Shown in pieces: positions 11,035 to 51,739 of a DNA stretch of 64,000 nt. Source of the DNA: Salarchaeum sp. JOR-1 (GTDB taxonomy: Archaea; Halobacteriota; Halobacteria; Halobacteriales; Halobacteriaceae); contig NZ_CP042241.1 in assembly GCF_007833275.1 (NCBI RefSeq), positions 1,674,001 through 1,738,000 of the forward strand. Reading direction: 5' to 3'. Under the pieces are notes generated by a model. It did not search any database. It was given only the letters and a program-made list of their open reading frames with translations, and was not told where the DNA came from. Position 1 is the stretch's first letter, and each line of letters begins with the position of its first letter. The position numbers and the translations under genes are program-made.

Positions 11035-11157
11035 TATAAAGGAGAAACAGAGCCGGGGGCATATTGGTGTCGGTAAAACTGGGCCAATCCACTATCGACG
11101 ACTGCTTCGAATCTACTCTCGGGCCGGCCAGCACAAATCGCTGAGAACGGGCAGTGT

Positions 11158-13584
11158 TTAGACGTCGAATCCCATGTCGTCATCTCCGAAGAGCAGATCG
11201 AGCTTGACCGTCTGCTTGCTTATCGTCTCTCTGGTGTCGGTGTCTATGACTTCGAATTGCACACTGTCCTCGCCGGAGATCGCGCCCTGTTTGAGCCGGA
11301 CTCGGGTGGTATTGGTTCCCGGCGAAATCTCCATCGAAGCAGGGTCTGCAACAGGCTCGCCGTCGATGTTCGCACGGACTTCCAGGGTCGGTGCTGGGTC
11401 GAAGGCAACTTGGCCGCTTTTGGCCTCGATCTCCACGGGGACGATGGAGTTCGTGATCGGATTAGGGATGGAAACGTCGTAGGTGATCGACGCGCTCTCC
11501 TCGATTTCTTCGGTCGTTACGGTGAGGCACGGAACAAGTAGCTCCTGAAGTGAAATTCCACCGTGGAAATAGCGCATGTTCCCACCCTGTGCTTTGAAGC
11601 ACGCGACACTTCGGGGGAACAGTAACTTCAGGTTGGGGGCGTCGATTCCGAGATCAGACAGCACATCCGGGCCCATCTCGATGAACTCGTCCGTATCGAC
11701 GAGTGGGGTATCGCTGTCCGCAGCGGCGAACCGTCGCTTTACGATAGGGGCGAGGTCAGGGGATTCGACCTTGAGGTCGTCAGACAACCGGTCCGTGTAG
11801 AGGAACCCGTGATCGCTCGTGATGACGAACCGGGTATATCCTGCTTGCTTGAGCCGCTGGACCGTACGTTCGACATCGTCAACGTGCGAGGCGACTTGGC
11901 TGAACGCTTCGTCGTCGTCGAGATTCTCACCGAGTTTGTCTATCGTCCCGGAGTAGACGACACGGGGAACCGGCTCGGACTCGGTCAGCTCTTCCAGCGA
12001 GATGTCGCTCACCTCGTCCATGTCCACGACTTCGAAGCCCGCGTTGCTGAGCCGTTCGACGCGATCCGATTTGCCGTTCATCGCCTCGCCGCCGCTGGTC
12101 ACGACGAGGTCGTCATCGTCCAGAGAGAGTCCGAGTTCTCCGGGGAGGTGTGCAGCCATCCCGACTTCGGTAATCGACGGCAGCGCTGCGCTGACAGCAC
12201 TCAGGTTCTGTTCGAAGTCGGTTCGTCGGCCGAGATTCTCCTTGATAGCTTCGGCGAGTTCGTAGCGTAGGCCGTCACAGATGATGATTGCTGTCCCGTC
12301 CTCCAAGTCAGCAAACTCCTCGTAGAACGAGGTTTGTGGTGTTCCGAGCGTCGGGTCGTCACTCAGGATATCGGCGAGCGGGCGATTGACGTCCTGGAGG
12401 AAGGACATGTAGTGTCTGGTGACCCGCCGTTTCACCATCGGTTCCTTGGGGTAGACGAACGTGGTCTTCCGGGTTGCATCGATGTATCGCCGATAGGATG
12501 CGTCGATCTGCCACCAGCCGTCTTCGCGCGTGTAGGCTTGAGCGAATTCTTCTGACGTGAGGGTCTTCGCCTCGTCCGCGTCAACGGTTCCAATCTGCTG
12601 GAGGGTTTCGATGGCTCGGGCAGGGACGGACCAATCGACGAGGTCCTCGTTGCTCCAGAAGCTGTTCTGCCGGGTCGTGACGGTCTGTTCGAGATCTGCG
12701 GCGATGTCGGGAAGATCAGCGTACGTCTCTTCAGCGAGTCGTTCCATCACGAGCCGGATGAGGCCCATGTCGATGCCCTTGAACGCCGTAGCGTCCCAGT
12801 GGGCACGCTCCGATTCCACCACGGCCTCCGCGAGGTCGTAGTCTTCTTCGATTCGTTCGGCGTAGCGTCGGAACTCGGCAGGCGCGTACTGCTGCCACTC
12901 GTCGCAGAACGCCGCAGCAGCGCGGGTGTCGTCCGCCGCGAGTTCGTCGTACCGGGACGTCGGAGCGCGGCTGGCCACCTCACCGAAGAGAAGCTGAGTC
13001 GCTAGCTCTTTCGGGTCGAGCCCCGCCGTGACACCGTACTCCTCTCGGAGTTGCGCGTCCCAGGCGTCGGCCATCGCGTTGTCCTCGATTGTCTCACGAT
13101 ATTCTTCAGGGTTCGATAGGTATGCTCGCACCCAATCATCCGTCTCCGGGCCAGCGGTGTCGAAGAGAACGCAGAAGAACGATAGGCGCTGAACCTCGCG
13201 GTTCTGGCCCCAGTCCTCATACGCGTCAGGAATCTCTTTGTCGTGCTCGACGAGAAACTGCGTGACAGGGGTGTCATCGATATCCTGGCCGACGCGGTAC
13301 TGTCGTCCGAGGGCGTGGATATCGCGGAACCACTCAGCGTCGTTCCGTGATTCAGGGATGTAGAACAGCCAGTTCTTCTCGTAGTCCGGATCCTCCTCGT
13401 GGAGGCGACGCTTCAGTTCGAAATAGCTGCCGTCGTAGCGGGCGAGCGTGACGTCGTTGAGTGCAGCTTCGACCTCGTCGAGGACACCTTTGTACTTCTC
13501 CTGAGCGTCGTACCACACCCAGACCGGATGTCGGTCGAACTTCTGCCGGAGTTCCGTGATAATGCTGTCCGCAAGATCACCCAT
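11158..13584 (-). CDS. pglZ: BREX phosphatase-domain protein PglZ
   Basis: An 808-residue PglZ. The N-terminal half is helical and variable (starts MGDLADSIITELRQKF). The alkaline-phosphatase-like core begins with TAIIICDGLRYELAEAI near residue 431 (metal-binding D) and contains RFVITSDHGFLYTD near residue 590 (DHG motif). The last 130 residues form beta-rich Ig-like segments, as in other PglZ proteins. PglZ is required for BREX methylation and restriction and interacts with PglX. The gene starts seven bases after the pglX stop, indicating coupled translation. Confidence 0.93.
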   Translation of the reverse strand: MGDLADSIITELRQKFDRHPVWVWYDAQEKYKGVLDEVEAALNDVTLARYDGSYFELKRRLHEEDPDYEKNWLFYIPESRNDAEWFRDIHALGRQYRVGQDIDDTPVTQFLVEHDKEIPDAYEDWGQNREVQRLSFFCVLFDTAGPETDDWVRAYLSNPEEYRETIEDNAMADAWDAQLREEYGVTAGLDPKELATQLLFGEVASRAPTSRYDELAADDTRAAAAFCDEWQQYAPAEFRRYAERIEEDYDLAEAVVESERAHWDATAFKGIDMGLIRLVMERLAEETYADLPDIAADLEQTVTTRQNSFWSNEDLVDWSVPARAIETLQQIGTVDADEAKTLTSEEFAQAYTREDGWWQIDASYRRYIDATRKTTFVYPKEPMVKRRVTRHYMSFLQDVNRPLADILSDDPTLGTPQTSFYEEFADLEDGTAIIICDGLRYELAEAIKENLGRRTDFEQNLSAVSAALPSITEVGMAAHLPGELGLSLDDDDLVVTSGGEAMNGKSDRVERLSNAGFEVVDMDEVSDISLEELTESEPVPRVVYSGTIDKLGENLDDDEAFSQVASHVDDVERTVQRLKQAGYTRFVITSDHGFLYTDRLSDDLKVESPDLAPIVKRRFAAADSDTPLVDTDEFIEMGPDVLSDLGIDAPNLKLLFPRSVACFKAQGGNMRYFHGGISLQELLVPCLTVTTEEIEESASITYDVSIPNPITNSIVPVEIEAKSGQVAFDPAPTLEVRANIDGEPVADPASMEISPGTNTTRVRLKQGAISGEDSVQFEVIDTDTRETISKQTVKLDLLFGDDDMGFDV

Positions 13585-13591
13585 ATATCGA

Positions 13592-16500
13592 TTACCTCGA
13601 ATAACTCGATTTTATCTTTGGGAGTCCAGTTTCAAGAACTTCATACTGATCCCACTCCTTGATGTTCTCCCAGATGCCCTTCTCAACATCGACGCCGACA
13701 CCGTCGTCGATCATCCGGTCGATGGTGTCACGGAACTCCCTGATGTCGTTGAGGTCATTTTGGACTTCTTCTTTTCTGTTCAAGAGTTCCGTATCTGGAC
13801 TATCTCCCTTAGTCTGGGTGTTTAGCGTCTCAAGTTCGTTTTCGAGTTCATCAATGCGGGGATCAAGGTACTGGCCACGGAGCTTCGGAAGCGTATTCGC
13901 GTCGATGTCGTGGTAATAAACGAAGCAACTGAATGCGCCATTCGGACTCTCGATCTGCCAATAGATCGGATTGGTTTGGCCCCTTCGATTGTACTCTTTA
14001 CAGTGGTTATACCTGAAGTACCGCTCTCGTACCCAAGTGCGAAGATCCCGACCGATTAAACTCTGGATCTCTTTTTCAACTTGGCCGTAGTCTTGAAAGA
14101 GTTCTTCGGCTGTCGTTACGAACAACCTCTCGTATTCATCAGCGTGGTCACTGATATCTAGGATCCCATCGTTTTCGGGGGTTGGTGCATCGTAGTAGCC
14201 GAACAGCGAGCCAAAGATCACGGATACGATACTCCCCGCGGCTTTCTCCGTTTGATCATCGGAGTACTGGCCGATTTCTTTCTTTATTTCGGCGACTGTC
14301 AGAGGGGACACTTCGAATTCATGGCTAAGCTCTATCACATCCAATTCGGACGAACCGGAGACCTCTCTCCTAATCTCATTCCAGTACTCGGAATCAACTA
14401 CCCGCCGAACCTTGTCCGCAAAAACGTCTGGAAGTTCAGCATCATTATCCTTGCAAACGTAAGGATATTTGATTAGTTCAGCGTTTCCTTCTTCAGATAT
14501 TTGTTTTCTAGACGCTCTGTCAATACCGTAATTATCGTAGACGAGTTCGGAAATCACACCACTTGCGAGGGCGACTTTCGCATCTATCATATCCGTATAG
14601 TAACACAATTCGTCGTAATTGTTTCTGAATACAGTATTGTCGAACTCCAACGATTTATCCTCGATTGCAGCTTGCTGTTTCCGCTGTTCGAGACAGTACT
14701 TGGCCCAATATTCCACACTCTCTAGTTCGTCAGGAGATGGATCAAACGGGATATTTTCTACGTCGCCTGGATTAAAATGTAACCCGGGGTTCAGACCCTT
14801 CATGATATATCTATTGAGGTCGGAGTTCAAGTAACCCAGAAGATAATACATCAGGTCATCTGCAATATCTATCTTGTAAGCTGTTTTACTGTGAATGGCT
14901 TCTTCTGTTAGATACTTCGCGGTGAAGTCGCTGCTGAAGTCTCGGAAAACGATTGCGGGATTGAACATTTCCGGGATCTCTGAGAAGCCTTGGATGTTTT
15001 TCCCATGTTTCTTGGCATACTGCTTGATATTTTCCCCATTATTCTCCCATCGAACAAGAGTGTCCGTATAATCATAATAATCCGTATCACGACCGTTATC
15101 GACCCACGGTTCGTAGTCCGATTTCGCATTTGCTTCCGTGACTTCCCAGAATTTCCTGAGATGGTGATCGTTATCGCCAGTAACGATTCCACTGAATGTC
15201 TCTACGTATTGGTCAAGGGTATTATGTTTGTCAAATAGAGACAGAACATCCTGCCCAAACCAATAAACGAACGTGTTATTTCCAATTCCAGTAAAGCTAT
15301 TCTGATTTACGACATATACGTCTGGATGATCACCCTCTGTACGAAGACTCTCCTGAATTTGGTTTAAACCCTCTATTTTCTTTTCGAACGTCGAGTATCG
15401 CTCAAGCTCATGTGTAAGTCTATAGAACCGCGACTTCTCAAAGTTTTCATCATTATTCCGGATGACGAAGGCAATAGTGTACGAATCTTTTTGCTGATCG
15501 AATCCGTATCGAGACAGGTGAAGTCCTTCAGTTATCTGGGTCTCGTCAATTAGTTTTTCCCTGATTTTCCTGTATGACTTCAACATCAGAAGATCTTCCG
15601 GCGTAACCAAAGAAGCGTATCCATCGTCAGCAGTAAGTTCGGTTCCTCTCTCGATGAAGCAGGTATAAGAATTCCTATAAGACATGAAGTTACTTTTAAG
15701 GAAATTTTTCAGATTATCTCCCATCTTCTGACTAACGAGATACGGCGGATTTGATAATACAACATCATATTCGTGTACCAAAACATCAAGGATTTCGACC
15801 GTCTTTCCGACTTCTCCCGCAAACATCTCTCCAATAGCATTATTCTGCTCTAAAGCCTGTGAGGCCAAGTTACTCACCTGATCTAAAAGTCGCTGTTTAA
15901 CTTCTGCCCAAGTTTCTTCTTGGCCTTCACCTGACACGAAAGAGCTCTGTGTTGCGAGAGTCCCTTCGCTAGTGAACTTCGCCTGCCCGGATTTTCGGAT
16001 GGCATCTCGGTGTTCTTCTAATATCTCGTCGATCCGTTCTTCTATACGGATTAAGCTTCCAAACTCCCGGATGTCAGCAAAACTATCCCAGATCTGTTCA
16101 ATAATTTCCTCCTCCAGCTCGGATCGCGCACTTTCAAGAACCTCCTTTTTCCGATCTCCATTGATTAGTACTGCATCACCAGAAACAATATTTATCTGAG
16201 GAATTGTCACTTCAGGAGATTTTTCTTTCGCTTTGAGATACAAGGAAAGAGCTGCAATTTGTGCCGCTCCTGAATCAATATCTATTCCATAGAGGTTATT
16301 ACGTAGAATTTCTCGGGGAATGTGCTCTTTCGGATATTTTCCTTCTTCCAGATACATCTGGTAGAGAACGTCAAATGCGTAAAAGAGCATGTGTCCGCTT
16401 CCACATGCAGGGTCGAGCACGGTAATCTCTTCAACCGGCTTCTCTTCACGATCATATAACGAATCATCAACCGGGGAGAGATAGAAGCAGTTATCTTCAG

Positions 16501-17311
16501 TATGTATATCCGTCATGTCACCCTGCATTTCGAGCCATGTTCGACCCAGCGTGTTATCGACCATCCACTCGACTATGTATCGCGGTGTGAATAGCTGGGT
16601 TTTCGTAGCGATATCCGTCCCTGCGATCTTGTAGTTCTCTTCGTCAACGCGTTCGTCAATCTCTTCGCGTTCTTCCTCACCGAAGTACTGGTACACCCAG
16701 CCCAGAGCTTCGTCACTTTCCCAGGCTTCGTCGTCGATTGCGTCCAGTTCGTCAAGGACTTCTTCTCGAACCTGCGCGTCGAGGTCGATGGCGGTGTGTT
16801 CGGATTCCTCGAAGATCATCCGAATCTCCGCACCGATCTCCTGGTACGCGAGGTCGAGTGCGGCACCGAAACCGTCGTCTGGAGCGTTGGTTAGCTCGCC
16901 AGCGATCTCCGCCACGGTGTGGTGCATGTACGACCGGTTGCCGTACTCTGGACGCTCGGTGATGGTTTCCTCGACGAGACCGCGAACCTCGATGGTCTTC
17001 AGCGCGACAAAGCGGTTGAGGTAGGTCTTCGTTGCTTCGCGGACGTAGTTTGTGATCGACCGCTCCAAGTCGCCTTCCGTGGATTCGAGTTCTCGTTCGA
17101 TGGCAGCATCCAGCGTTCGTCGAGTGTGGCGTTCTTCTGCGGACAGGTGAGAGAGGTCTTCGAGCGGGAGACGCTTGTCCTCGTAGATACCGTACTTTTC
17201 GAGTTGTCGGCGAAGCTCGTCTTCGAGGGTATGGCGCGTGCTGAGAATGGTGCTTCGGATGGTTGAGCGTTGATCCGACGAGAGACCAGGTTGACCGTGT
17301 GTCGTGGACAT
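13592..17311 (-). CDS. pglX: BREX adenine-specific DNA methyltransferase PglX
   Basis: A 1,239-residue N6-adenine methyltransferase that marks host DNA so BREX spares it. The SAM-binding motif LDPACGSGHMLFYAFD is near residue 315 and the catalytic NPPY (YDVVLSNPPYLVSQKM) near residue 520. The rest is helical spacer and target-recognition region with a coiled-coil segment near the C-terminus. The ATG at 17311 (MSTTHGQPG) is preferred over an upstream in-frame ATG at 17395, whose extra residues are non-acidic. Base composition changes inside the gene: about 14.25-16.5 kb is clearly A+T-rich (16 of 60 bases G or C in 15661-15720), while both ends match the island average. Confidence 0.93.
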   Translation of the reverse strand: MSTTHGQPGLSSDQRSTIRSTILSTRHTLEDELRRQLEKYGIYEDKRLPLEDLSHLSAEERHTRRTLDAAIERELESTEGDLERSITNYVREATKTYLNRFVALKTIEVRGLVEETITERPEYGNRSYMHHTVAEIAGELTNAPDDGFGAALDLAYQEIGAEIRMIFEESEHTAIDLDAQVREEVLDELDAIDDEAWESDEALGWVYQYFGEEEREEIDERVDEENYKIAGTDIATKTQLFTPRYIVEWMVDNTLGRTWLEMQGDMTDIHTEDNCFYLSPVDDSLYDREEKPVEEITVLDPACGSGHMLFYAFDVLYQMYLEEGKYPKEHIPREILRNNLYGIDIDSGAAQIAALSLYLKAKEKSPEVTIPQINIVSGDAVLINGDRKKEVLESARSELEEEIIEQIWDSFADIREFGSLIRIEERIDEILEEHRDAIRKSGQAKFTSEGTLATQSSFVSGEGQEETWAEVKQRLLDQVSNLASQALEQNNAIGEMFAGEVGKTVEILDVLVHEYDVVLSNPPYLVSQKMGDNLKNFLKSNFMSYRNSYTCFIERGTELTADDGYASLVTPEDLLMLKSYRKIREKLIDETQITEGLHLSRYGFDQQKDSYTIAFVIRNNDENFEKSRFYRLTHELERYSTFEKKIEGLNQIQESLRTEGDHPDVYVVNQNSFTGIGNNTFVYWFGQDVLSLFDKHNTLDQYVETFSGIVTGDNDHHLRKFWEVTEANAKSDYEPWVDNGRDTDYYDYTDTLVRWENNGENIKQYAKKHGKNIQGFSEIPEMFNPAIVFRDFSSDFTAKYLTEEAIHSKTAYKIDIADDLMYYLLGYLNSDLNRYIMKGLNPGLHFNPGDVENIPFDPSPDELESVEYWAKYCLEQRKQQAAIEDKSLEFDNTVFRNNYDELCYYTDMIDAKVALASGVISELVYDNYGIDRASRKQISEEGNAELIKYPYVCKDNDAELPDVFADKVRRVVDSEYWNEIRREVSGSSELDVIELSHEFEVSPLTVAEIKKEIGQYSDDQTEKAAGSIVSVIFGSLFGYYDAPTPENDGILDISDHADEYERLFVTTAEELFQDYGQVEKEIQSLIGRDLRTWVRERYFRYNHCKEYNRRGQTNPIYWQIESPNGAFSCFVYYHDIDANTLPKLRGQYLDPRIDELENELETLNTQTKGDSPDTELLNRKEEVQNDLNDIREFRDTIDRMIDDGVGVDVEKGIWENIKEWDQYEVLETGLPKIKSSYSR

Positions 17312-17519
17312 GGATATTAGAGGGTCGTGTACTGCCACGAAACGGGCGGGACGGCAGTACGCTGTGTCGTGATTCCCGCCCGCGATGACATACAACCAGC
17401 AAGTGCTCGGCGTGTCTTATATTGTTGGGGTTAGAAGTGATGCGCCAGGATGCTCAGGACTCCTTCGAAAAATCGGTATCGGTGGGAAATCTTCTCGCCT
17501 TGAAACGTCGCCCGCATGA

Positions 17520-17529
17520 AATTTATAAG
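17520..17529 (+). promoter_or_regulatory. TATA-like box of the Mrr-like gene
   Basis: aatttataag lies about 26 bases before the ATG at 17551, the spacing expected for a leaderless haloarchaeal transcript. This decides the start codon in favour of 17551 over an in-frame upstream codon at 17422. Confidence 0.6.
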
Positions 17530-17550
17530 CTGCCCGGATGGACGCCAGTT

Positions 17551-18498
17551 ATGGTCAGCGCGTATATTGTTCGGCGAACGCCAGCGGGGACTGACCGTAT
17601 GGAGGAATTCCTCCAAGAGGAGATGGTTGCGATAGGTTGGTCCACGTTGGGTGATTTATCCGAAGCGGATAAACAGGAAATCCGAAATCGGCTTGAGAAG
17701 GAGTACCCGGATGACGATCCCAGAGCGATCGGACTCAGGGTCGGCTATATCAATCGGCTCGTCAATAAAATGGATGAGGGGAATACGGTTCTTGTTCCGC
17801 GATATGGTAACGTCTACGTTGGCGAAGTTACAGGGGAGTATGAGTACAAAGAGTCGTTATCTGAGGACTATGCCCATCAACGTCCGATAGATTGGAGGTT
17901 TAACAAATCTGCCATTGATGGGCAGAAAGCACCACAGAAGATTCACAAGAAGCTCTATCCGGGAACAGTCAGTCATACGGTTCAGGACCTGGATGATAAA
18001 AATGCGGTTGAAACGTTTCTCAAACAGTCAGCTGGTGCCGAGAAAATCCGGTATTTTGAACTCCTCCAAGATGGCGAACTCTATGGAATCAATAAGAAAA
18101 CCATTGAGGAAGCCATGCTCACCGTTTTCCAGCGGTACTATCCTACGATGCGTGGCGCTGGAACGAGAGGGGACGATGAAGGAGATACGGACCTAATTGC
18201 TGAAAACCTCCCAGGTGATCTTACTGTTCGCATCCAGATCAAGCATTACGGGGACGGCGATCTTGGCACCGAGCCTATAGACCAGCTTGCCAAATCGATG
18301 GATGACGGCGATAGAGGAATCGTGGCCACAGTCGGCCAGGTTAGTCCGGCCGCCGAGAAGCACGCTGCGGATTCAGATTACGAGATCTCGTTAATTGATG
18401 GGTGGGAGTTCACAGAGTTGGTGTTCGAACATAGAACTGAGTTTTCAAGGAGTGAACGGCGACTGCTGGGTCTCGACTCACTTCCGCAAGTAACCTGA
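17551..18498 (+). CDS. Mrr-like restriction endonuclease inserted in the BREX cluster
   Basis: A 315-residue protein starting MVSAYIVRRTPAG. The N-terminal half (about residues 1-130) is a mixed alpha/beta specificity-type region with AIGWSTLGDLSE and VPRYGNVYVGEVTGEYEY. The C-terminal half is a PD-(D/E)XK nuclease of Mrr type: GTRGDDEGDTDLIAE supplies the catalytic Asp, TVRIQIKHYGDG the Q-x-K, and SLIDGWEFTELVFEH the terminal helix. Mrr proteins cut modified DNA. The gene lies on the plus strand between brxC and pglX, opposite to the BREX genes, with its own promoter. It has lower G+C than brxC, consistent with separate acquisition. Confidence 0.8.
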   Translation: MVSAYIVRRTPAGTDRMEEFLQEEMVAIGWSTLGDLSEADKQEIRNRLEKEYPDDDPRAIGLRVGYINRLVNKMDEGNTVLVPRYGNVYVGEVTGEYEYKESLSEDYAHQRPIDWRFNKSAIDGQKAPQKIHKKLYPGTVSHTVQDLDDKNAVETFLKQSAGAEKIRYFELLQDGELYGINKKTIEEAMLTVFQRYYPTMRGAGTRGDDEGDTDLIAENLPGDLTVRIQIKHYGDGDLGTEPIDQLAKSMDDGDRGIVATVGQVSPAAEKHAADSDYEISLIDGWEFTELVFEHRTEFSRSERRLLGLDSLPQVT

Positions 18499-18628
18499 AT
18501 AATGGACTGGCTTCCCAAATCTCGTCGGGAAAACCGTGAACGGTTCAGGATTCCCTACCCCAGTTGGAGCCTTTGAACCCGAAGAAAATGGATTCTATCT
18601 CAAAATATGGGCCGTGTCGGTGTGCGGG

Positions 18629-21600
18629 CTACCTAAACCGAATTTCAACGTCGCCGTCTTGATCGAGAAGTTCTTCGACCTTTTCTCGGAGGTCGGCGAT
18701 TGGCTCCTCGATGTCGTCCGGCTCAGTCACGACGGTGCTCCCGAAGATGGCGGACGTATCCACCTTCTCGCGGATCTTCCCATCGTCGTCATCTTCTTCG
18801 AGGTCGTCGATTTCGTTCTTGGCTGAGCTCTCGTACGCATCGACGGTCTGGATGTGCTCGATGAGGCGCGTGAGCGAGGGTGTGGGATTGATGTGGTCCT
18901 TGGCGGAGATATCCAGATCAACCGATCCTTCGCCCTGGCGCTCCGTCAAGTCCGATATTGCCGACTCCAGATCATCGTCGTCGATGTCGTCGCCTGCGTA
19001 CGCCCGGACGTTGTCGATGGAAGCGGTGTAGGTCTCGTAGCGCTGCTCGTACAGATCCTCGTACGTTGAGGCGAAAGCTTGTGCTGCTGTTCGATAATAT
19101 GTTTTAACATCATTCCACAGATCGACGACGCCCTCTGTGTGAAGTGTGTTCTTGACGCGGTTGGCTGCCTCACGTGCTTCATCGCTAACGTGAACGATAT
19201 CGTGATCAGCTGCTTCGTCCACGAGCGTCTCCCACTCTCCAGAGATGAAGTTCTGAATCGTCTCGTACTCCTTCAGGTGGTTCTCGCCGCCCTTCTCGCC
19301 ACAGAACTCGGCTACCGCTTTCGCCGTTTTGGCGAGGTCCTCCAATTCGTCCTCGAACTCGACGAACTTTTTGATACGCTTGGCGGATGTAGGCTGTTCG
19401 AGCAGGTTTTTGAGTCGGGTCTGGAACTGCTCGACATCGTCAGCCAGCGGGAAGTCCACCCGCCGCAGCTGCGAAAGCAGGGTACTCGTGATAGATACCC
19501 AGTCGTTCGCTTCATCCCGAATCCCCTCATCAACGGCTTGGTCCGTGGATTTGACCTTGCGGTCGAACAGCCGGTCGAGGAGCTGCTTGGCGTCAGTCCG
19601 GGTTTCGACATCGACGGTTTCCCGTTCGTCGAACGAGGTGGACTTGAACTTCGTGACCTGGGTGAACAGCTCCTGTGCACCATCCTCCGTGTACGTGCCG
19701 TACGTTCGCTCCTTGTAGGTCGGGATGATTGAACCGTTCCGGAAGAGGACGGCAGCAGCGAGCCTGACAACTTCGCGGCTCCAGCCATATGGCGGCTCTG
19801 CGAAATGGTCAATCAGGTCTTCTCCTGTCCGATCTTCTCCGGATTTTTCTCGGCGTTGAATTTCATCCTCGACTTCGGAGGCGATGCGGGCCTCCGCGAT
19901 GAGCTCGCCGTCCTGAACGACACCGAGATCAGTAAATACCGAGGGCAGTGACGAGTCCTGCAAGTCGCCGAAGATCTGCTCGATGTGTCGGTCTTTGACC
20001 GAGGCAGAACCGTGCTTGAAGTTCGTGAAGACCTTCGGGATGGCGTTGTCGGTCTTTCGAGCGACGAGTGAACTCAGCGAGGTGTTGGTCGCGTCGAACT
20101 CCTCGGTATCGCCATTGTAGATGAGCACACCGCGCTGGAAGCTGCGTTTGAACTCGCGCTCGACTTCGTTGCGGAGGCGCTGGAGGTCCTCCTGTTTCTG
20201 TCCGAGTGCTTCCTGTTCTTCTTGGCTGAGTTCGTTGCCACGCTTCTCTTTGACGACGGTGTTGATCTGGTAGATCGATTTGAGCTTGTCGTAGATGGCG
20301 TGTTGCTTCTCGTCGTCGGCGATCCAGTAGAGAGTATCGTCCTCGCTGAAGCTCTGCGTCTTCAGACCGTCCGGGTCGAGGTCCTCGTATCGCTGGTAGA
20401 TCGGCGAGTAGGTTTTCAGGTCGATGTGCCCCTTGGACGTGATTTCTTCGCCGTCGATGTTCAGGTTCAGCTGGAACGTTTGCCCCTCGTAGTTGACGCG
20501 TGAGGTTTCGTCGAGGATGTCATTCAGGAAGCGCTTGGACGACCGGCGGATATCGCCAGGACCAACTTCGATCCCCTTGATCTCGTTTTCGAGCTCACGC
20601 TCGGTTTCGCGGAGGAACCGATATCCCTCTTCGCTCCGACCGACGAATCCAGCGTCAACGAGCGCGTCAAGCGTGTCTTCTACCTCACCCTCTAACTCCT
20701 GAGTCGGGCCGAGTTCTCGCTGGAGAGACGTAGCAATGTTGTCCGCTGTGTTCGGAATCCAGGGAAGCTGTTGGAGGAGGTAGAGAGATTTGAGGACGCG
20801 CCGTGCGGTTTCCGTGTCGGCATCCTTCGGTTTCGCCTCGCGGATGGATTTGACGTCACTGCTGGGGATGTCGTTGCTAATCTCCTCGAAGATCATGTCC
20901 AGCGTGACCAGCGCCCCGAGTTCCTCGTTGTAGAGGTACTGCTCGTCTTTGAGGACGCTCTGTGTGACGTCAATCAGCGTCCGCTCACTCCCGGCCAACT
21001 GATCGTCGGAGCCTTTCCCGAGTGACTTGAAGATTTCCGGGAGGATGTCGAGCTGGTAGGGAAGGAATGGGTAACAGTCGATGAAGTTGTCCTTCGTAAT
21101 CGGTTTTAGACTTTGGCTAGATTCGAGTTTATACTTTGCCGAGAGGAATCCTTCATGCTCGTCGTAAAGACCACCGATTGTACCCCTGTACTCACCTTTT
21201 TTACTGAGAACGCGGTCGCGGACGACCTTATCGAGGTTTTCGGAGGTGAGGTCGAACCGGTGTGGGAAGCGGTCGATGACCTTCGATTCCTCGGCTTCTT
21301 TTTCCAGCACGCCGGGAATCAGCTGCTGGAGCTGCTCCTGAGACGTGACCCCGAGGAAGATTTTCCCCTTGCCCTTCTGTCCGAATTCCTCAACGATGCT
21401 CTGTAGCTCCAGGAGGAGTTGTCCGTCGTCGCCGATGAATTGAGAGATCTCGTCGATGAAGACGAAGTACCGACAGTTGTCACCCGTCTCTTCCTCTCGT
21501 TTCTCGACGTAGTCAATGATATCCTCAGCGAGCGTCGAAGGGTTGATCAGGACGTTATCCCGGACGTCATCAATCGCCCGAGCTGCATCGTCCTCGTCGT

Positions 21601-22270
21601 CAAATTCATCGGTTGCCTCGACCAAGGCGGTCTCCATGTCCGACCGGACGAACATAGCGTCCTTGCGGGCTTCCGTCCAGTCCTTCCCGGTGTTCGCCTC
21701 GATGGCGTTGACGAAGTCGTCGTAGACTCCCCGAGATTCGAGTTCCTGCTCCATTTGGGCGACCCAGGGCATCGACGCGTAGCCACGCGAGGTGTTGAAC
21801 TCCCGGTGAATGATCTCCGTGATTGACTCGCTACCGGAGGCATCAGCTTTCGCGCCGATCTGGAACATCAACACCTCCGAGTCGAATTTCTGCGTCACGG
21901 AGCCGACCGCACCGTCGAGCATTTCGTTGCCCTCGATGCGATCCCGGAACATGTCGGCTGCCTGGGTATCGTCGAATTCGCGGTTTTCTAGGACGTGCCC
22001 GAGGATCTTCATGAAGTGGCTCTTCCCGGAGCCGAAGAACCCCGAGACCCACATGCCAACGTCCTCCGTCTGGGCGTGTTCGGTGTCGATGACGGCCTCT
22101 AATGCGTCCGAAAAGTGCCGTTCGAGCTGCGGTGTGAGGATGTACTCTTCGAGCTCTTTCTTGACGACACTCGGGTCGTCGTTGTCTACTTTGACGACGC
22201 GGTCGATCTTCCGGTTAATCGACCGGTAGAAGATTTCGTGTATCTGGTGTGATGTAGTAGTGTCACTCAT
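18629..22270 (-). CDS. brxC: BREX ATPase BrxC
   Basis: A 1,213-residue protein of the BrxC/PglY family (DUF6079-type). It opens with MSDTTTSHQIHEIFYR and has Walker A SGFFGSGKSHFMKILG near residue 78 and a Walker B-like region FVFIDEISQFIGDDGQ near residue 275. The C-terminal 400 residues are mainly helical and acidic. BrxC is a large STAND/AAA-type ATPase essential for BREX methylation and defence. Its start overlaps the end of brxB by eight bases. The downstream pglX is separated from it by the oppositely oriented Mrr-like gene. Confidence 0.93.
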   Translation of the reverse strand: MSDTTTSHQIHEIFYRSINRKIDRVVKVDNDDPSVVKKELEEYILTPQLERHFSDALEAVIDTEHAQTEDVGMWVSGFFGSGKSHFMKILGHVLENREFDDTQAADMFRDRIEGNEMLDGAVGSVTQKFDSEVLMFQIGAKADASGSESITEIIHREFNTSRGYASMPWVAQMEQELESRGVYDDFVNAIEANTGKDWTEARKDAMFVRSDMETALVEATDEFDDEDDAARAIDDVRDNVLINPSTLAEDIIDYVEKREEETGDNCRYFVFIDEISQFIGDDGQLLLELQSIVEEFGQKGKGKIFLGVTSQEQLQQLIPGVLEKEAEESKVIDRFPHRFDLTSENLDKVVRDRVLSKKGEYRGTIGGLYDEHEGFLSAKYKLESSQSLKPITKDNFIDCYPFLPYQLDILPEIFKSLGKGSDDQLAGSERTLIDVTQSVLKDEQYLYNEELGALVTLDMIFEEISNDIPSSDVKSIREAKPKDADTETARRVLKSLYLLQQLPWIPNTADNIATSLQRELGPTQELEGEVEDTLDALVDAGFVGRSEEGYRFLRETERELENEIKGIEVGPGDIRRSSKRFLNDILDETSRVNYEGQTFQLNLNIDGEEITSKGHIDLKTYSPIYQRYEDLDPDGLKTQSFSEDDTLYWIADDEKQHAIYDKLKSIYQINTVVKEKRGNELSQEEQEALGQKQEDLQRLRNEVEREFKRSFQRGVLIYNGDTEEFDATNTSLSSLVARKTDNAIPKVFTNFKHGSASVKDRHIEQIFGDLQDSSLPSVFTDLGVVQDGELIAEARIASEVEDEIQRREKSGEDRTGEDLIDHFAEPPYGWSREVVRLAAAVLFRNGSIIPTYKERTYGTYTEDGAQELFTQVTKFKSTSFDERETVDVETRTDAKQLLDRLFDRKVKSTDQAVDEGIRDEANDWVSITSTLLSQLRRVDFPLADDVEQFQTRLKNLLEQPTSAKRIKKFVEFEDELEDLAKTAKAVAEFCGEKGGENHLKEYETIQNFISGEWETLVDEAADHDIVHVSDEAREAANRVKNTLHTEGVVDLWNDVKTYYRTAAQAFASTYEDLYEQRYETYTASIDNVRAYAGDDIDDDDLESAISDLTERQGEGSVDLDISAKDHINPTPSLTRLIEHIQTVDAYESSAKNEIDDLEEDDDDGKIREKVDTSAIFGSTVVTEPDDIEEPIADLREKVEELLDQDGDVEIRFR

Positions 22271-22832
22271 GTTCGATCACCCTTGCGCGGTAATATGTTC
22301 CTTCAGATTCATCGAGGAATCGTAAGCTCTTGTCATCGACTTTCGCCGGATAACAGAATACGATTGGGGTATCGTCCGGCGTATTCGTTTCTAATTGCCC
22401 CATTAGAGTGGAAGCGCTTGCAAATGGGTAGAGAATACCCATTCGGTAGACAATAACGGTATCCGCTTTCTCTGCCTGTTCTGCAATTGCTGATGCCAAC
22501 TTCCCCATTCCACCGTCGTCCAGCAACGATGATTTCAGGCCATCGAGCAGCTGCTCTTTGTCTCGGCGTTCAAGGTCGATGACGCTATCTAAAATCCCGC
22601 GTTCTTCGAGAGTTGTGAAGACCAGGTCTCGCATATCAATCCCGGCGACGTTCTGGTCGTGATATTCCAGTTTTTCAATAAGGTTCTGGACCTCCTCGTC
22701 AACCTCAATTTCGTCGGCTGGATCGTACGTGAAGACAATAAACGGGACACCCGCTCGTTTCCCAACCTCGTCACGATCATCTCGAACAAGTCGTTCAACC
22801 TCTTCGAGCCGTTCCTGAAACTCAGAAGGCAT
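22263..22832 (-). CDS. brxB: BREX protein BrxB
   Basis: A 189-residue protein matching BrxB (DUF1788) in length and pattern: an N-terminal helix (FQERLEEVERLVRD), the central VPFIVFTYDPADEI, and a C-terminal DTVIVYRMGILYPFASASTL followed by PIVFCYPAKVDDKSL. BrxB is required for BREX function and is thought to bridge BrxC and other subunits. The gene overlaps brxA by 11 bases and brxC by eight. Confidence 0.85.
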   Translation of the reverse strand: MPSEFQERLEEVERLVRDDRDEVGKRAGVPFIVFTYDPADEIEVDEEVQNLIEKLEYHDQNVAGIDMRDLVFTTLEERGILDSVIDLERRDKEQLLDGLKSSLLDDGGMGKLASAIAEQAEKADTVIVYRMGILYPFASASTLMGQLETNTPDDTPIVFCYPAKVDDKSLRFLDESEGTYYRARVIEHE

Positions 22833-23634
22833 CGATGAGGCCCTCCATACTGTCGTACTTTCTCACGAGGCGTTGTGTAGAGCCGCGTTTCTCATAGTTT
22901 ACGTACTGAGGAGAGATATCTCGAATCCGCCGCTGCACCTCTGACTCGTTCATGAGGAATAGTTTCCAGTCGTCGTGTTCGATGATCTCTGATGCGGAAT
23001 TTACGCCTTTCTGGAATAGTCGATACACCACGTACGCGACGGTCTCATCAGGGATGTATGTGACTGCGAATTCCTTCCGCTGGGTTCCCTCCATGAGACC
23101 GAAGTTGCGGAGAGCGGTGAGGTACTTCGTAGCGGCTTCGTTTATTGTCGATTCCGAGCGATCCCGTATGTCGGCGTAGTTATCCTGAATCGATTCGATG
23201 AACTCGACGATGTCTACTGCTTGGACAGAGAGAGTTCCACGCTCAAATTCAGGATAGAGGAAATCCGTTGTGACGAGCCGAATAAACGAATCTTGGGCGA
23301 ATTCGTAGTAGAGACACCAGTCTATGACGTCACTACGAACATCCGAGCTTATCACCTTCATTAGCGGAGTTTCCGTATACTCCTCTTTGTCTGGGATGTG
23401 CCGACGCGTAACTTCCCGGAGAATATTCGTTCGATACTCGTCGGTGTTCTTATTCAGGATGTTACCCTCGACGACCTGCTGCTCTAGCTCCTCATAAGAA
23501 CCACACTCTACGTAGGTTTGGAGGATTCTTTTTGTCTCGTCGATATACGTACTGTGGTGAGCGATTTTCGGGTCGAGGCTCTCTTCTGGCTCAATCCCTT
23601 CTTCATCCTCTGGCTCGACGTGTTCGTTACTCAT
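22822..23634 (-). CDS. brxA: BREX protein BrxA (DUF1819)
   Basis: A 270-residue, slightly long BrxA. After an acidic N-terminal 20 residues it has the helical DUF1819 pattern: NILREVTRRHIPDKEE, then ALRNFGLMEGTQRKEF and a C-terminal HDDWKLFLMNESEVQRRI ending in a Tyr- and Arg-rich tail. BrxA is a DNA-binding winged-helix-like subunit of type 1 BREX. Assignment rests on gene order and this pattern. It overlaps brxB by 11 bases and follows the brxE-like gene by nine. Confidence 0.8.
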   Translation of the reverse strand: MSNEHVEPEDEEGIEPEESLDPKIAHHSTYIDETKRILQTYVECGSYEELEQQVVEGNILNKNTDEYRTNILREVTRRHIPDKEEYTETPLMKVISSDVRSDVIDWCLYYEFAQDSFIRLVTTDFLYPEFERGTLSVQAVDIVEFIESIQDNYADIRDRSESTINEAATKYLTALRNFGLMEGTQRKEFAVTYIPDETVAYVVYRLFQKGVNSASEIIEHDDWKLFLMNESEVQRRIRDISPQYVNYEKRGSTQRLVRKYDSMEGLIDAF

Positions 23635-23643
23635 ACGAACTCA

Positions 23644-24300
23644 TCACGCGTTCTCCGATTTAAGTTCTGACTCAAGGTTGTAGTACGGCACCTGAAGCTG
23701 ATCGGTACACTGTCCGTATCCTCGAAGGAAAGTGGTGAGAATTCTCCATTTATCGGGCTCAATCTCATCTTGGGTATAGCCCTTCTCGCCGATTAGATAT
23801 GATTCGCCAGGACCCGGACTCTGCTGAGGCTCAGTGGTGTCTGTACTGGAGATGTTCGACGCAGTTGCGGTAATAATACCGTCTGTCCATCCCTTCCCCA
23901 GCGACTGGACCGATAGGTCTTCGAGCGCTTCAAACGTCAGATCGTCGTCGCCTTCCAGCTCCTCAATGGCAGCGGTAAGGCGTGATTCTATCTGGGGCCC
24001 GAAGGAGAAAAGTGAGATTGAATCATCAGCAACCCGATCTGATTCTGCTTTGCGGCCAACTTTCAATGCGAGAGTAACTCGGGATTTCAGCTTTGTTTTT
24101 GGGGTTACTTCAGACAGCCGAGTACGACCAGTCTCAGATAGAACCCGGGATTCCCACCAATTCTGATTACTCGATTCACCGATCCGTTCTACTACAAGAC
24201 GGGAAGCGACAAGATCCAGAAAGAAGTCATTGGCAATTCCTGCTTTCTCGAGCGTTTCTCTGGTTGAGGCGAACACGTCGGCGACGTCAGCGGAGGTCAT
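23644..24300 (-). CDS. BrxE-like protein, first gene of the BREX cluster
   Basis: A 218-residue protein starting MTSADVADVFASTRE (an in-frame ATG at 24348 is also possible). It contains VVERIGESSNQNWWESRVL, close to the R-hGE-x-x-x-x-WW-x-S pattern of BrxE proteins described from type 6 BREX, followed by a helical region. The C-terminal part contains a linker and KWRILTTFLRGYGQC. BrxE is not part of canonical type 1 BREX, whose order otherwise applies here. Biochemical role unknown. The start codon abuts a possible start of the divergent phosphoesterase gene. Confidence 0.6.
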   Translation of the reverse strand: MTSADVADVFASTRETLEKAGIANDFFLDLVASRLVVERIGESSNQNWWESRVLSETGRTRLSEVTPKTKLKSRVTLALKVGRKAESDRVADDSISLFSFGPQIESRLTAAIEELEGDDDLTFEALEDLSVQSLGKGWTDGIITATASNISSTDTTEPQQSPGPGESYLIGEKGYTQDEIEPDKWRILTTFLRGYGQCTDQLQVPYYNLESELKSENA

Positions 24301-24420
24301 ATGTACACACACAATAGGGGAGGTTTTAGAACCAGCGTCTCTGGCCACCCCGAGCTTCCGTCGGAGTTAGAAGTAATCGCCGAGTTGATATCACCCGACG
24401 GAAATGGATTCGTATATACA

Positions 24421-25725
24421 ATGGGCGCTGGGAATGAGTTGACTGAGCTCTACGATTCTCTGACTGTTCTTTATGGGTCACTGCCGTCTGGAACGGATCC
24501 GGAATGGAGGGAGGCGTTGAAATCCGTCCTCTATGGTGGGGAGTTGTTGGCTGATGAGGCTTCCTGTTACGGGAAACAACAGAATGAGCGGAATCGTGGG
24601 AAGCGGAAGGAGTACGCGCGCCGGCATGGGAACGGGGAGCGGGTGACAGAGTTTTCGGCGATCACAGTGGCGGAGCCGCGACTAGAGGACAAGCGGTACG
24701 TGCCGTCTGGGGCTGTGTTGCCGGTTGCGCCTGAGTCTGGTGAAGTTCTTCCCGTGAAGGTGTCGGGGGATGAGGTGGATCGTGCGATTGTGTTGCTTTC
24801 TGAGTTCCCGGCTGAACCAGCAGCTGATCGGCCAGGTGATGGTGTCGATGTGTTGCTTGATCCGGAGCGAGTTCGGCAAGTGCGGAAGCGTGTCACTGGC
24901 GGTGAGGAGACGTCTATCCTGTTCGTGAGTGATACTCACTTTGGGTACGAGAATCGTGCGATTACGGGGAGCGGAAAGACTGTGTCGTGGATTGACGAGA
25001 TCTCAAGTATTGATACAGTAAAGCGGGTCGTTGAGATTGCTATCGACAGGGATGTGGATGCGGTCCTCCATACTGGCGACATCTTGGATCACGAAGTTGA
25101 GGCTGACACGTTGGAGGCTGTAGCGTTCTGGTTCGAAGTGCTATCTGAAAGCGGAATCCCCGTGTACTGTATTGTCGGGTCGCACGATCATACTTCGTAT
25201 GAACCAGAGTATCCGGACTCTGTTAACGGGATTTCGTGGCTGAAAGAACAGGTGAAGAAGGGACGCCTCACAGAGTTGTCAACGAGCCCAACCACTGTCG
25301 CTGGCGGCCCTGTTGATGCGTACGGGATCCCTGCGGGGAACGTGGGGATTGATGATGTGGGGAAGTTCCAGTCACGCGAGTGGACACCGTCCAATATCGC
25401 GTTCGGGGCAGCGTCGCCTGGACCGAATATCCTTTGTCTACACGATGGAGTGACGCCGTATCGGGGGTCCGATGCTGACGTTGAGTTGGATCAGTTACTC
25501 GCCCAATCGCGCGTCTCGTTTGACTGCGTGCTGATCGGCGATGAGCACCGCCCGAAGAACCGGGATTTCGAGGACGGGTATACGTTTGAAGCCGGTGATG
25601 AGACACCGGTGTTCTACACGGGGCCAGCGATACGGATTAGTGAGCCGTACCAGAACCGCGACGCGTTCGTGACTGAGCTGTCAATCTCTGATACAGGGGT
25701 GACAACGAAGCGGCACTCGGTATGA
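24421..25725 (+). CDS. calcineurin-like phosphoesterase with undescribed N-terminal domain
   Basis: Residues from about nt 24916 onward form a metallophosphoesterase: SILFVSDTHFGYE (D-x-H), VLHTGDILDHE (GD), CIVGSHDHTSYE (GSHDH replacing GNHDH), ILCLHDGVTPY and LIGDEHRPKN (last histidine motif). It probably acts on nucleic acids or nucleotides, as SbcD-like enzymes do. The first 150 residues match a region of the giant helicase gene (about 43490-43900), sharing SCYGKQQNERN/SYGEQQGSRN and the end LLSEFPAEP/LLQEFPAEP. The frame extends to an ATG at 24301, but that abuts the brxE-like start with no promoter space, so 24421 was chosen; this is uncertain. Confidence 0.7.
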   Translation: MGAGNELTELYDSLTVLYGSLPSGTDPEWREALKSVLYGGELLADEASCYGKQQNERNRGKRKEYARRHGNGERVTEFSAITVAEPRLEDKRYVPSGAVLPVAPESGEVLPVKVSGDEVDRAIVLLSEFPAEPAADRPGDGVDVLLDPERVRQVRKRVTGGEETSILFVSDTHFGYENRAITGSGKTVSWIDEISSIDTVKRVVEIAIDRDVDAVLHTGDILDHEVEADTLEAVAFWFEVLSESGIPVYCIVGSHDHTSYEPEYPDSVNGISWLKEQVKKGRLTELSTSPTTVAGGPVDAYGIPAGNVGIDDVGKFQSREWTPSNIAFGAASPGPNILCLHDGVTPYRGSDADVELDQLLAQSRVSFDCVLIGDEHRPKNRDFEDGYTFEAGDETPVFYTGPAIRISEPYQNRDAFVTELSISDTGVTTKRHSV

Positions 25726-29314: not shown

Positions 29315-30601
29315 ATGGCTTCACTCGAGGTTCTGTGTACGGCGGATATCCATATTGGACGCCGTCCGAGTCGGCTTCCCGATAGATTTGATTCGGTTGA
29401 ATTCTCGCCGCGACAGGTCTGGGCTGATCTTGCGGCGACGGCTGTGAATCGGGGAGTGGATGCGGTCGTCGTTGCGGGGGATCTCGTGGATAGCGAAAAC
29501 AGGTACGCCGAGGCGTTCGGGGCTGTTGAGTCTGTGGCGACGACGCTGGCGGAGGCAGAGATTCCGCTCGTCGTTGTCGCCGGTAACCACGATGCCGACG
29601 TGCTGCCGGACCTGGCCGATGCAATTGATCACCTCCAGTTGCTCGGCCGGAACGGGACGTGGGAACGAACGTCTCTCACCGACGCAGATGATGATTCGCT
29701 TCTTCATCTTGAGGGGTGGTCGTTCCCGGGTCGGTACCATCACGAGAGTCCGTTAGCCACGTACGACCTGTCCGACGACGGTGTGCCGCGTCTCGGCGTT
29801 GTCCACGCAGACGTGAGTGACGAGGATCGGTACGCTCCAGTTGCCGTAGATGACTTGGCGACAAGTGGGCACACGGCGTGGGTGCTTGGGCACCTCCACG
29901 TCCCGGGGACACGCCACGACAACCCGCCGGTTCTCTATCCGGGCTCCCTACAGCCGCTGGACCCGAGCGAGACTGGCGGTCACGGGGCGTGGTTGCTCTC
30001 GGTCGGGACTGACGGCACGGTTGAGGCAGAGCCGCTCGGGTCGGCGACACTGCACTACGAGGAGGTCACCGTCTCAACAGCCCCCGAGGAGGGATTCCAC
30101 GACATCGTCGATGCCACGCACGAGCAGTTGCGTGACGTAGTCACCGAGTGTGGTGCTGAAACCGAGCTTTTAGCGGTCAAATTGGTGATTGAGGGGCGGA
30201 CGGACGCACATACCGACCTACGCACTCGACGTGGGGAACTCGAACAGATTGAACTCACGGAAGGCGGGACGACAGTGCGGGTCATCGATGTCAATATTAA
30301 CACGAGCCCCTCGATCGACCTCGCTGAGCGCGCCGGCGACGATGATCCAATCGGGTATTTGGCCGGACTGTTGCGCGCACTCGACGGGGATGAACCCATA
30401 GAACCCTACCAAGACGTCATTGAGGCGGCGCATGCGAGTGTCCGAGAGACGCACGACTCCAACGCGTATCGGGAACTCAAGAGCCATGATGAGTCCTATA
30501 CTCGTCCGACGGAAGCCGAAACGAAAGACGTTCTTCGCCAACAGGCGCGGCGGCTCGTTGATGCGTTCGTTGAGCAACAGGGGGTGACGGCCGATGAGTG
30601 A
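29315..30601 (+). CDS. SbcD/Mre11-like (YhaO-type) DNA repair phosphoesterase
   Basis: A 428-residue metallophosphoesterase with all signature motifs: LCTADIHIGRRPSR (D-x-H), VVVAGDLVDSENRY (GD), VVAGNHDADVLPD (GNHD), VVHADVS and VLGHLHVPG (GH-x-H), followed by a C-terminal helical capping region. It should act with the ATPase encoded next as a nuclease on DNA ends. The gene overlaps that ATPase by eight bases. The partner's membrane hairpin makes this pair closer to bacterial YhaO/YhaN than to canonical archaeal Mre11/Rad50. Confidence 0.85.
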   Translation: MASLEVLCTADIHIGRRPSRLPDRFDSVEFSPRQVWADLAATAVNRGVDAVVVAGDLVDSENRYAEAFGAVESVATTLAEAEIPLVVVAGNHDADVLPDLADAIDHLQLLGRNGTWERTSLTDADDDSLLHLEGWSFPGRYHHESPLATYDLSDDGVPRLGVVHADVSDEDRYAPVAVDDLATSGHTAWVLGHLHVPGTRHDNPPVLYPGSLQPLDPSETGGHGAWLLSVGTDGTVEAEPLGSATLHYEEVTVSTAPEEGFHDIVDATHEQLRDVVTECGAETELLAVKLVIEGRTDAHTDLRTRRGELEQIELTEGGTTVRVIDVNINTSPSIDLAERAGDDDPIGYLAGLLRALDGDEPIEPYQDVIEAAHASVRETHDSNAYRELKSHDESYTRPTEAETKDVLRQQARRLVDAFVEQQGVTADE

Positions 30602-37105: not shown

Positions 37106-40100
37106 TCACCAGGCTTCGTATCCGTCGCCGTGCTCGGTAGCCTGCTTCACCTCTGCAATCTGGGTGTCGTACACTGTGCGCAGGAGGCTGAGACACAAAT
37201 TGGCTTCAACATCTGGTTGTTGCGAGCCGCTTGTCACGGTGGCGTAGTTGTCGCCTTCAGAATCAATCGTCAGATTGTATTGATCTACTGCCTCTTGGAG
37301 TGCTGTTTTCTGTGAGGGTGTGAGGCGAGTCAGATTGTGTGAGCCATTGAGATATTGGTAGTGGGTGTCTGTCTCACCGTTGTTCTCGAATGTCAGGTTG
37401 ATCCAGTGGTCCGAGTGGTCGTCCCGGTTGAGGTGCTTTTCGAAGAGGCTAGTGAGTTGGTCAGATCGATTCGAATCGTGCTTCGAACGGTCAATGGCGC
37501 CCTCAGATGAACTATGTTGGTCGATTTTCGAGCTGATATACTCTGCTGCATCGCTTATGTCGCTGGCATGTGTTCCTGTCTCGGCAAAGCGATATTTTGT
37601 GCCGTCGTTCGTTGTGAACGTGATCCATTGGGTCGCAATATTGTTTGTCGCCTCCACGTCGGTGATTTGATCGTAACTGAAGGAACGACTCTCATCTCGT
37701 TGGTCCAATCCGGCAACGTAGCAGATTCGTTGGTCGGTGATCAGGAGGAATCGGGAGCCGCTGGTTGTCTTATCGTGGTGTGGCGTTTCCTCTGTCTCAT
37801 CCGGGGATATTTTCCGTAGACCTTTGTATTGATGCCAGAATACGTATGCCAGATATTCATCCGGTCGCAGGTAGTCAACGAGTTGCTGATCGATGAGACG
37901 TCCATCCGTTTTTGTCAGAATGGTCTCTGAGAAGGAGCCTTTTGCCTGACTCACTAGTTGCGAGGGAGAGCGTTCCTCAGGGGTGCTCCTATCGCTTTGC
38001 TCGGAATTCGGATTCGTCTCACCGTGGTTCTCGGTTAGTTCTTTTAAATTTTGATCGGCAAGTGCGTGACACTGCTCTGAATCCTTCCAGTGATTCCTGA
38101 ACGCGTCCTCACTGTTGAAGACTTTCTCATCGCAGTAGGGGCAAGGAACCATCCAGCCTTTATTGGGGAAGTCCAGCCAGGGGAACGACCCATCTGAACT
38201 CTCAATGTCGAGATTGACGCTGGGTTGCTGTGTGTGTGAATCTTGCTTATCGCTATTCGATGGTGAGTCTGTCTCTGCTTGGTTAGCTGTCTCCTCAGTC
38301 GTACGTGACTCAATCGTTTCGAGGATACTGGTCCACTCTTGTTGGGAGATCTGACTTGCTTCCGGTGGAGTTGGTGCGGGACCATTGCACCGATCTGCGT
38401 TTACCCAGTGAGTTACAAATGCGTCTTTCGTGTTGTTGATGTGTGAGTCGCAGTAGGGGCAGGGGACTTGCCACTGTGATCGGTCATAGTTGAGGAAAGG
38501 GAACGACTCAGGTTCTTTTTGACCTGGTGGTGTAGCGTCCTCTGACTCCGGTTCTGATGGGTCGTCACTCGGTGCTGAAGCCGAAACAGACGGATAAATT
38601 CGAGAGAGGAGCACTGAGTCGGGGTGTTTCGTCTCGTTCAGCGTGACTTTGTCTCCCCTCTTGATGAACTCTTCCTCCTCAAGAAGACTGAGTGCCTCGC
38701 CGATACGAGTCTGAATCCGGTTCCCGCGGCGCTGGTACCCGAACAGTCGCGTCGTCTCAAGGACGATATCGTCCTCCTTGATCGCACCGCCTTCCCGGAG
38801 CACGACAGTGATTGCTTTGGCGATCTCTTCGAGTGGGATTTCGTCGATCGTTCGCGTGTCTGAATCCGTGTTAATTCGGATATCGAATTCCAGTTCGTCG
38901 AGCGGTGGCCACAGGAATTCGCCGTGTTCGTAGACCTTGTCCTGCCTCTCGAGTTCGTCGAGGCGGTTTCGGAAGATTCGTTGGACTTTCTGCCCAGCCC
39001 GTGATTGACCCCAGACATCGAGGTAGGTCTGCATCGCGGTGTCGTATTTGATGGGGCCATTCTGGACGACGGTGTCCTGAATTGAATTCCGATTTGCTTG
39101 ATCCATCCCCTGTTTGTCGGAATCGTACCGTTCGTCCCACTCAAGCGAGGGTTCTTCGAACTCGGTGATCTCGTCGTGCTCAACCTTCGAATCGACCTCC
39201 ATGACTTCGGGTTCGTGCGAGGGGATGTCAGGGTCGTCTGTGGAGAACGACTGGCCGTCGAGCAGGTCCTCAACTTTCTCGTTGATCTTTCTGATCTCGC
39301 GCTCCTGGTTGGACGCCCAGTCGGGGGACCAGATTCGGTGAATTGTCCAGCCCAACTCCTCAAGCACCATCTGCCGGGTCCGGTCTCGGTCTCGGGCTGT
39401 CTTCGAGGAGTGGTACGCGGCCCCGTCGCACTCGATACCGAGGATGAATTTCCCGGGGTGTTCTGGGTGCTTGATTGCTAAGTCGATACTGTAGCTGGAG
39501 CTCTGTACTTGCGAGACGACATCGTACCCTTCTGCTTCGAGTGCGTCGTATACCGCTTCTTCGAACTGTGAATCGAAATCGAGCGTGTCTGTCACTTCGT
39601 CGTCTCGGACGAGGGCCTGTTCGCCTTTGCGGGCGTATTCGAGGTAGTTCTTGAAGTGCTTGGCACCGGTGCTATTCGAGCCTGAGAGGTCGATGTCGCC
39701 GGGGAGCATCGAGCAGACGACCGTGATGTGTTCTTTCGCCCGCGTCACTGCCACGTTGAGGCGTCGTTCGCCACCGCTCTTGTTGATCGGGCCGAAATTC
39801 GTCGAGATCGTGCCGTCTTGAGCGGGCCCGTAGCCGACACTGAAGATCATCCGGTCTCGTTCGTCGCCCTGAACCATTTCGAGGTTCTTGATGAAGAACT
39901 CGTCGAGCACGTCGTCTTGACTGACGAACGCATCAAGCACGGGGCTCTCCTCACGTCGCTCAGCGAGCGCGTCTCGGATAGCTTGTTCTTGGGCGCTGCT
40001 GAACGCGACGACGCCGAGGCTCTTATCACTCCGTTCTTCTGCGTGTTCCTCGATTAGATCGACGACTCGCTGTGCTTCGACCTCGTTTTGTCTCGAGCCA

Positions 40101-51713: not shown

Positions 51714-51739
51714 ATTGCTGGAAACCAACACACGAATCT

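Follow-up and report, generated by a model that had tools for sequence, protein, structure and literature searches.

One domain on unrelated effectors in and beside haloarchaeal defence systems, with a diverged copy in Hafunaviridae

A single domain of about 140 residues, with one predicted fold, is grafted onto unrelated effectors in or beside several defence systems of haloarchaea, and a diverged copy of it is present in Hafunaviridae. It was recognised in a window of 64,000 nucleotides from Salarchaeum sp. JOR-1 (the whole stretch of DNA analysed), in which a phosphoesterase flanking a BREX operon and a giant helicase both carry it. This module is found under no name in the domain libraries or open-access literature searched. 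The reading somewhat favoured here is that it is a non-catalytic docking (adaptor) module of antiviral proteins, tying unrelated effectors to a common partner. The features concerned are as follows.

9007..23634, minus strand: remaining BREX operon, with brxA, brxB, brxC, pglX, pglZ and brxL (PADLOC)
23644..24348, minus strand: brxE, divergent from the phosphoesterase gene (NCBIfam NF033447 BrxE_fam, 110 bits against a cut-off of 40)
24301-25725, plus strand: phosphoesterase gene, as the listed open reading frame (ORF)
24421..24828, plus strand: module copy, N-terminal in the phosphoesterase, residues 41-176 of the ORF starting at 24301 (blastp with the giant, profile match, AlphaFold model of residues 1-136)
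24913..25722, plus strand: Mre11-like calcineurin phosphoesterase domain (Pfam Metallophos; motifs SDTH, GDILD, GSHDH, LCLHDG and GDEH)
37106..46906, minus strand: giant protein of 3266 residues (Pfam, PADLOC, NCBIfam)
43478..43924, minus strand: module copy, internal in the giant, residues 995-1143 (blastp with the phosphoesterase, AlphaFold model)

The module and its two hosts in the window

The phosphoesterase and the giant share one homologous domain. Their sole significant blastp match joins residues 69-173 of the former to residues 1028-1140 of the latter, with 40% identity (E 1e-16). Longer segments (residues 38-178 and 995-1144) give a local alignment score of 183, against 30 ± 5 and a maximum of 51 in 1000 shuffles, an excess of 28 SD; the two tests rule out chance similarity. 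An earlier note had placed both segments correctly, and the four motif pairs it quoted are all accurate. Neither copy matches Pfam or NCBIfam. None of 53 module copies rises above a Pfam gathering score (best E 0.009, in one member only), and PHROGs yields one weak unnamed family only, in 8 of the 53 (best E 6e-4). A domain private to the phosphoesterase N-terminus was also considered and is ruled out by the other host proteins and by tandem copies.

AlphaFold models the giant's copy, from 31 sequences, with a pLDDT of 92.6 and a pTM of 0.90; for the full phosphoesterase the overall value is 86.6, and most module blocks lie at 83 to 95. Compared by secondary-structure order alone, the two models agree (four helices, short strands, a helix, a short strand and a last helix), and the segments that the earlier note took for one domain do not come out as different folds. 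Sequence and structure searches of the PDB with the module gave nothing convincing (Foldseek best E 5.2, VIA-align best Z 2.9), and a missing match is no proof of a new fold. Conservation falls mainly on Y, G, Q, R and P. The conserved polar motif YGxQQxxRN...EYR...GDG...T could be a ligand site or an active site, a point against the docking reading.

The phosphoesterase is a calcineurin-like metallophosphoesterase by Pfam (Metallophos, 50.6 bits against a gathering score of 21.5, E 4e-13), and its orthologue alignment keeps the DxH, GDxxD, G[ST]HD, H and GDEH motifs. Its true start is likely the ATG at 24421, as the coordinate in the earlier note implied, because conservation across 18 orthologues begins at M41; the protein therefore probably has 434 residues, with the module at about 1-136 and the phosphoesterase at about 165-434. 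The first part of the listed ORF (24301-24421) overlaps the start of brxE, and a start at 24421 leaves a divergent promoter region of about 70 bp. A degenerate module copy is carried by two diverged phosphoesterases (L063, L064).

The giant combines an SF2 helicase (ResIII, Helicase_C), DUF5797, two HNH_repeat units, the module, a DUF4011/AAA_11/AAA_12/MTES_1575 part, zinc fingers and bPH. The DUF4011 part is ProA/Hhe/PDC-S37-like, a DUF4011-SF1 helicase-nuclease. In two other loci (L040, L048), a separate helicase gene, 50-51% identical to the giant's N-terminus, adjoins a gene with module and HNH repeats and is a split form of part of the giant. Adjoining the giant itself is a minus-strand gene pair (47018-51731), whose 1117-residue member has a McrB-like GTPase part and, upstream of it, matches 2gbs (Rpa0253) weakly. 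Homologues of this pair are next to or close to the phosphoesterase gene in several other species (L035, L082, L083) and to the BREX genes in L123. The window also holds, on the plus strand (29315-34151), a second Metallophos gene (29315-30601) overlapping an SMC/ABC-like ATPase gene (30594-34151), an Mre11-Rad50-like pair; relatives of both genes accompany the giant in L126 and the phosphoesterase-module gene in L075.

Spread, architectures and defence neighbours

A two-sequence profile of the module found matches in 47 of 391 haloarchaeal genomes and 29 of 86 genera; with a 53-sequence profile, the counts in three families were 24/170, 22/146 and 9/125 genomes. In a phylum-wide sample of 393 genomes, matches were confined to the window's own order, and tblastn with the module against plasmids returned haloarchaeal records only.

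At least nine architectures carry the module: metallophosphoesterase (MPE); SF2 helicase; the SF2 plus ProA/Hhe-like giant; HNH_repeat+HHH_5+bPH; pentapeptide+HHH_5+PRTase; MPE+HHH_5+PRTase; PQQ propeller; tandem modules; and short proteins. The earlier note had named recurrent fusion to nucleases or helicases in haloarchaea as support for a defence adaptor domain, and such fusion is borne out: the hosts include phosphoesterases and SF2 helicases as well as DNA-binding HNH-repeat proteins and PRTase effectors, and they mostly lie beside known defence genes. The module is N-terminal in phosphoesterases and internal or C-terminal in other hosts. Proteins of 520 and 487 residues have two modules and a tail that looks OB-like by eye only, and others of 435 residues have a C-terminal module; no effector domain is recognised in any of these. 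Module and phosphoesterase occur either fused (in BREX with brxE) or as neighbouring divergent genes, as in L065, where a gene for two modules and the OB-like tail diverges from another phosphoesterase gene.

The module tree clusters copies by architecture (14 label changes against 32.8 expected). The two window copies fall in different groups and so did not arise by recent duplication of one another. The phosphoesterase copies group together with full support and are nested with the module-OB proteins; SF2 and HNH-repeat copies are intermixed. The fusion to phosphoesterase therefore probably has a single origin, and the remaining combinations repeatedly arose or were swapped. Front-end exchange has left a direct trace in two proteins (L089, L091) that are 73.5% identical across 720 C-terminal residues, module included, and have different front parts, a helicase in one and a PQQ beta-propeller in the other.

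In the class sample, the module-phosphoesterase fusion occurs in 18 genomes, 15 of which have it divergent from brxE-A-B-C-pglX. Counted in reverse, 20 close brxE places were found, 19 of them assessable; the fusion is present at 15 of the 19 and missing at four (three genomes). One of the 15 brxE-linked fusions (G052) is frameshifted. Three further copies in the sample lie elsewhere than beside brxE; the fusion follows a BREX-3-like PglXI-BrxC-PglZ set in L035 and a type IIG enzyme with an HKD-Snf2-like helicase in L079. In L061 (5408-6846), a phosphoesterase-module gene runs over two frames and is apparently a broken copy; the BREX locus that it adjoins is otherwise similar. Within the window, the gap between pglX and brxC (17396-18628) contains a plus-strand ORF of 358 residues; it matches nothing in the PDB, and none of the other BREX loci examined showed it.

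Judged from these neighbours, the haloarchaeal module genes probably have a defence role. The neighbouring systems comprise three kinds of BREX, together with Pbe, DprA-PRTase pairs and YprA-type helicase/TGT genes. In L094 and L066, where the module is separate from the phosphoesterase, its gene has BrxC, PglX and PglZ of a second BREX kind nearby (2140, 2201 and 890 bits, respectively). PbeA/PbeC-like neighbours occur in L040, L046, L050 and L091; PbeABCD is an antiviral system of haloarchaea (PMC6459918). All seven PRTase module proteins adjoin DprA, and a pair of this DprA-PRTase kind protects E. coli against phage (PMC9122126). YprA-type DEAD-MZB helicases and/or TGT genes (L042, L044-L047, L092, L093) give neighbourhoods resembling BRIGADE, in which ARMADA-like YprA helicases accompany a 7-deazaguanine biosynthesis cluster and which is described from halophilic archaea only (PMC12458937); L042, compared on these two genes only, has the DEAD-MZB helicase and TGT beside the module protein. 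TGT-like, ~180-residue and HATPase (HATPase_c_3) genes recur together near module genes (L044:7263-12170, L042, L046, L047), either as a DNA-base modification cluster or at a shared insertion site.

The viral copy and the role of the module

The diverged copy, a conserved protein of the halovirus family Hafunaviridae, was found independently by structure and profile searches; it was reached through structure search, not by direct tblastn of the window copies against phages. Foldseek against viral models returned two haloviral proteins (E 5.4e-6 and 9.7e-4), the second a 300-residue Serpecor1 protein, and among Serpecor1 ORFs the sequence profile singled out HrrSp1_655, of the same length. The module HMM matched viral proteins at E 3e-8 and 2.5e-6; those at 3e-8 were HSTV-2 gp102 and HRTV-7 gp104, and the latter has 349 residues, the length of the first Foldseek match. 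The hhalign value is 97% for the HSTV-2 group and a weak 60% for the HF2 group. The copy is present in 41 HF1/HF2-like and 8 HSTV-2-like phage records and lies towards one genome end among the records listed. The early-transcribed arm of HF2 (PMC8707807) has it as first ORF. Serpecor1 also has its own metallo-phosphatase gene, overlapping a hypothetical-protein gene (L096:10906-13319) in what is possibly a viral SbcCD-like pair.

Under the docking reading, the module would bring each effector, whether phosphoesterase, helicase or PRTase, to a ligand common to all. The simplest candidate is a conserved protein or nucleoprotein of the host that is engaged during copying of foreign DNA; effectors from any system could then share one point of detection or activation. 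Within the window, this would bring together at one place the Mre11-like BREX phosphoesterase and the SF2/ProA-like giant. That there is one common partner, target or signal is what we infer, and the module probably marks a docking point shared in the arms race between haloarchaea and their viruses. Haloviruses may imitate it; their copy could act as a decoy occupying the ligand or could use the ligand for the virus. A more far-reaching version, which we consider unlikely, makes one host factor the hub for many unrelated effectors and the early-expressed Hafunaviridae protein a competing mimic that blunts several defence systems at once.

The main rival, possible though rather doubtful, is that the module is a nucleic-acid-binding domain reading DNA structure or modification together with adjoining HHH and HNH-repeat parts. 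It is often fused to HHH_5, HNH_repeat, helicases and Mre11-like nucleases, and many of the genes nearby belong to DNA-modification systems (BREX, Pbe, TGT-containing loci); the DNA-binding parts on so many hosts run contrary to docking, and the module may itself bind nucleic acid. However, it is also attached to PRTase toxin-like and propeller proteins, and it matched no known DNA-binding fold, which by itself proves little. Nor is it less acidic than its hosts are elsewhere: the mean charge per residue is -0.089 in the module and -0.083 in the remainder, and the module is the more acidic of the two in 34 of 59. Charge is thus uninformative on DNA binding.

An intramolecular gate, autoinhibitory or activating, could act in each effector with no common external partner, and the differing place of the module, N-terminal in phosphoesterases and internal or C-terminal elsewhere, is consistent with this; yet the proteins of 520, 487 and 435 residues have the module and no recognised effector domain, and a single ligand is a simpler account than a fold that gates catalytic domains of unrelated kinds. 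The gate is quite improbable. Least probable of all is a module that is itself enzymatic, processing a ligand or nucleotide and so making or removing a signal. Its conserved YGxQQxxRN/EYR/GDG motif is polar, but the only invariant columns of the weighted profile are P and L, with no catalytic-looking polar set among them, several proteins have two copies, and the fusion to unrelated enzymes is reminiscent of an adaptor.

Were the module a docking tag, whatever it binds would serve as a control point shared by haloarchaeal immunity of the BREX, Pbe, DprA-PRTase and helicase types, and the viral protein would be a candidate for broad counter-defence. The module profile also offers a means of finding further haloarchaeal immune proteins.

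Comparison with known systems

Like BREX with BrxE (type 6-like), the window has brxE-A-B-C and pglX, together with pglZ and brxL, and the phosphoesterase is a recurrent divergent neighbour; it differs in having brxL, and brxD/brxHI were not seen in the window. The effector section and main-text terms of a BREX survey contain no such phosphoesterase among auxiliary effectors (PMC12839542).

The phosphoesterase domain resembles Mre11 both by sequence and by predicted fold (best Foldseek matches Mre11, E 1.4e-12). In contrast to Mre11/SbcD nucleases, it scores 60.8 bits against the cut-off of 550 of NCBIfam Mre11_Halo (NF041030), its last motif is GDEH rather than GHxH, no Rad50 partner directly adjoins it, and it has an extra N-terminal module. 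Residues 1212-2726 of the giant align with the DUF4011 helicase-nucleases ProA (NF058533, 1290 bits against a curated 1500) and Hhe (NF042953, 826 against 2000), but a second (SF2) helicase, HNH repeats and the module stand ahead of that part. As in ShosTA and other DprA-PRTase pairs, the PRTase C-terminus matches ShosT and PsyrT (L049, the one tested) and DprA is the next gene, whereas the module proteins have long N-terminal parts with pentapeptide or phosphoesterase, HHH_5 and module.

Adaptor domains common to immune effectors, such as the effector-associated and death-like domains of bacterial conflict systems, are a known kind. The module resembles them as a small, probably non-catalytic domain moved between unrelated effectors and sensors, but it differs in lacking a Pfam match and, for its predicted fold, a convincing PDB match, and in being known so far from haloarchaea and their viruses only. 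Its reach over BREX, Pbe, DprA-PRTase and helicase systems in one archaeal class, together with a viral counterpart, is new to our knowledge.
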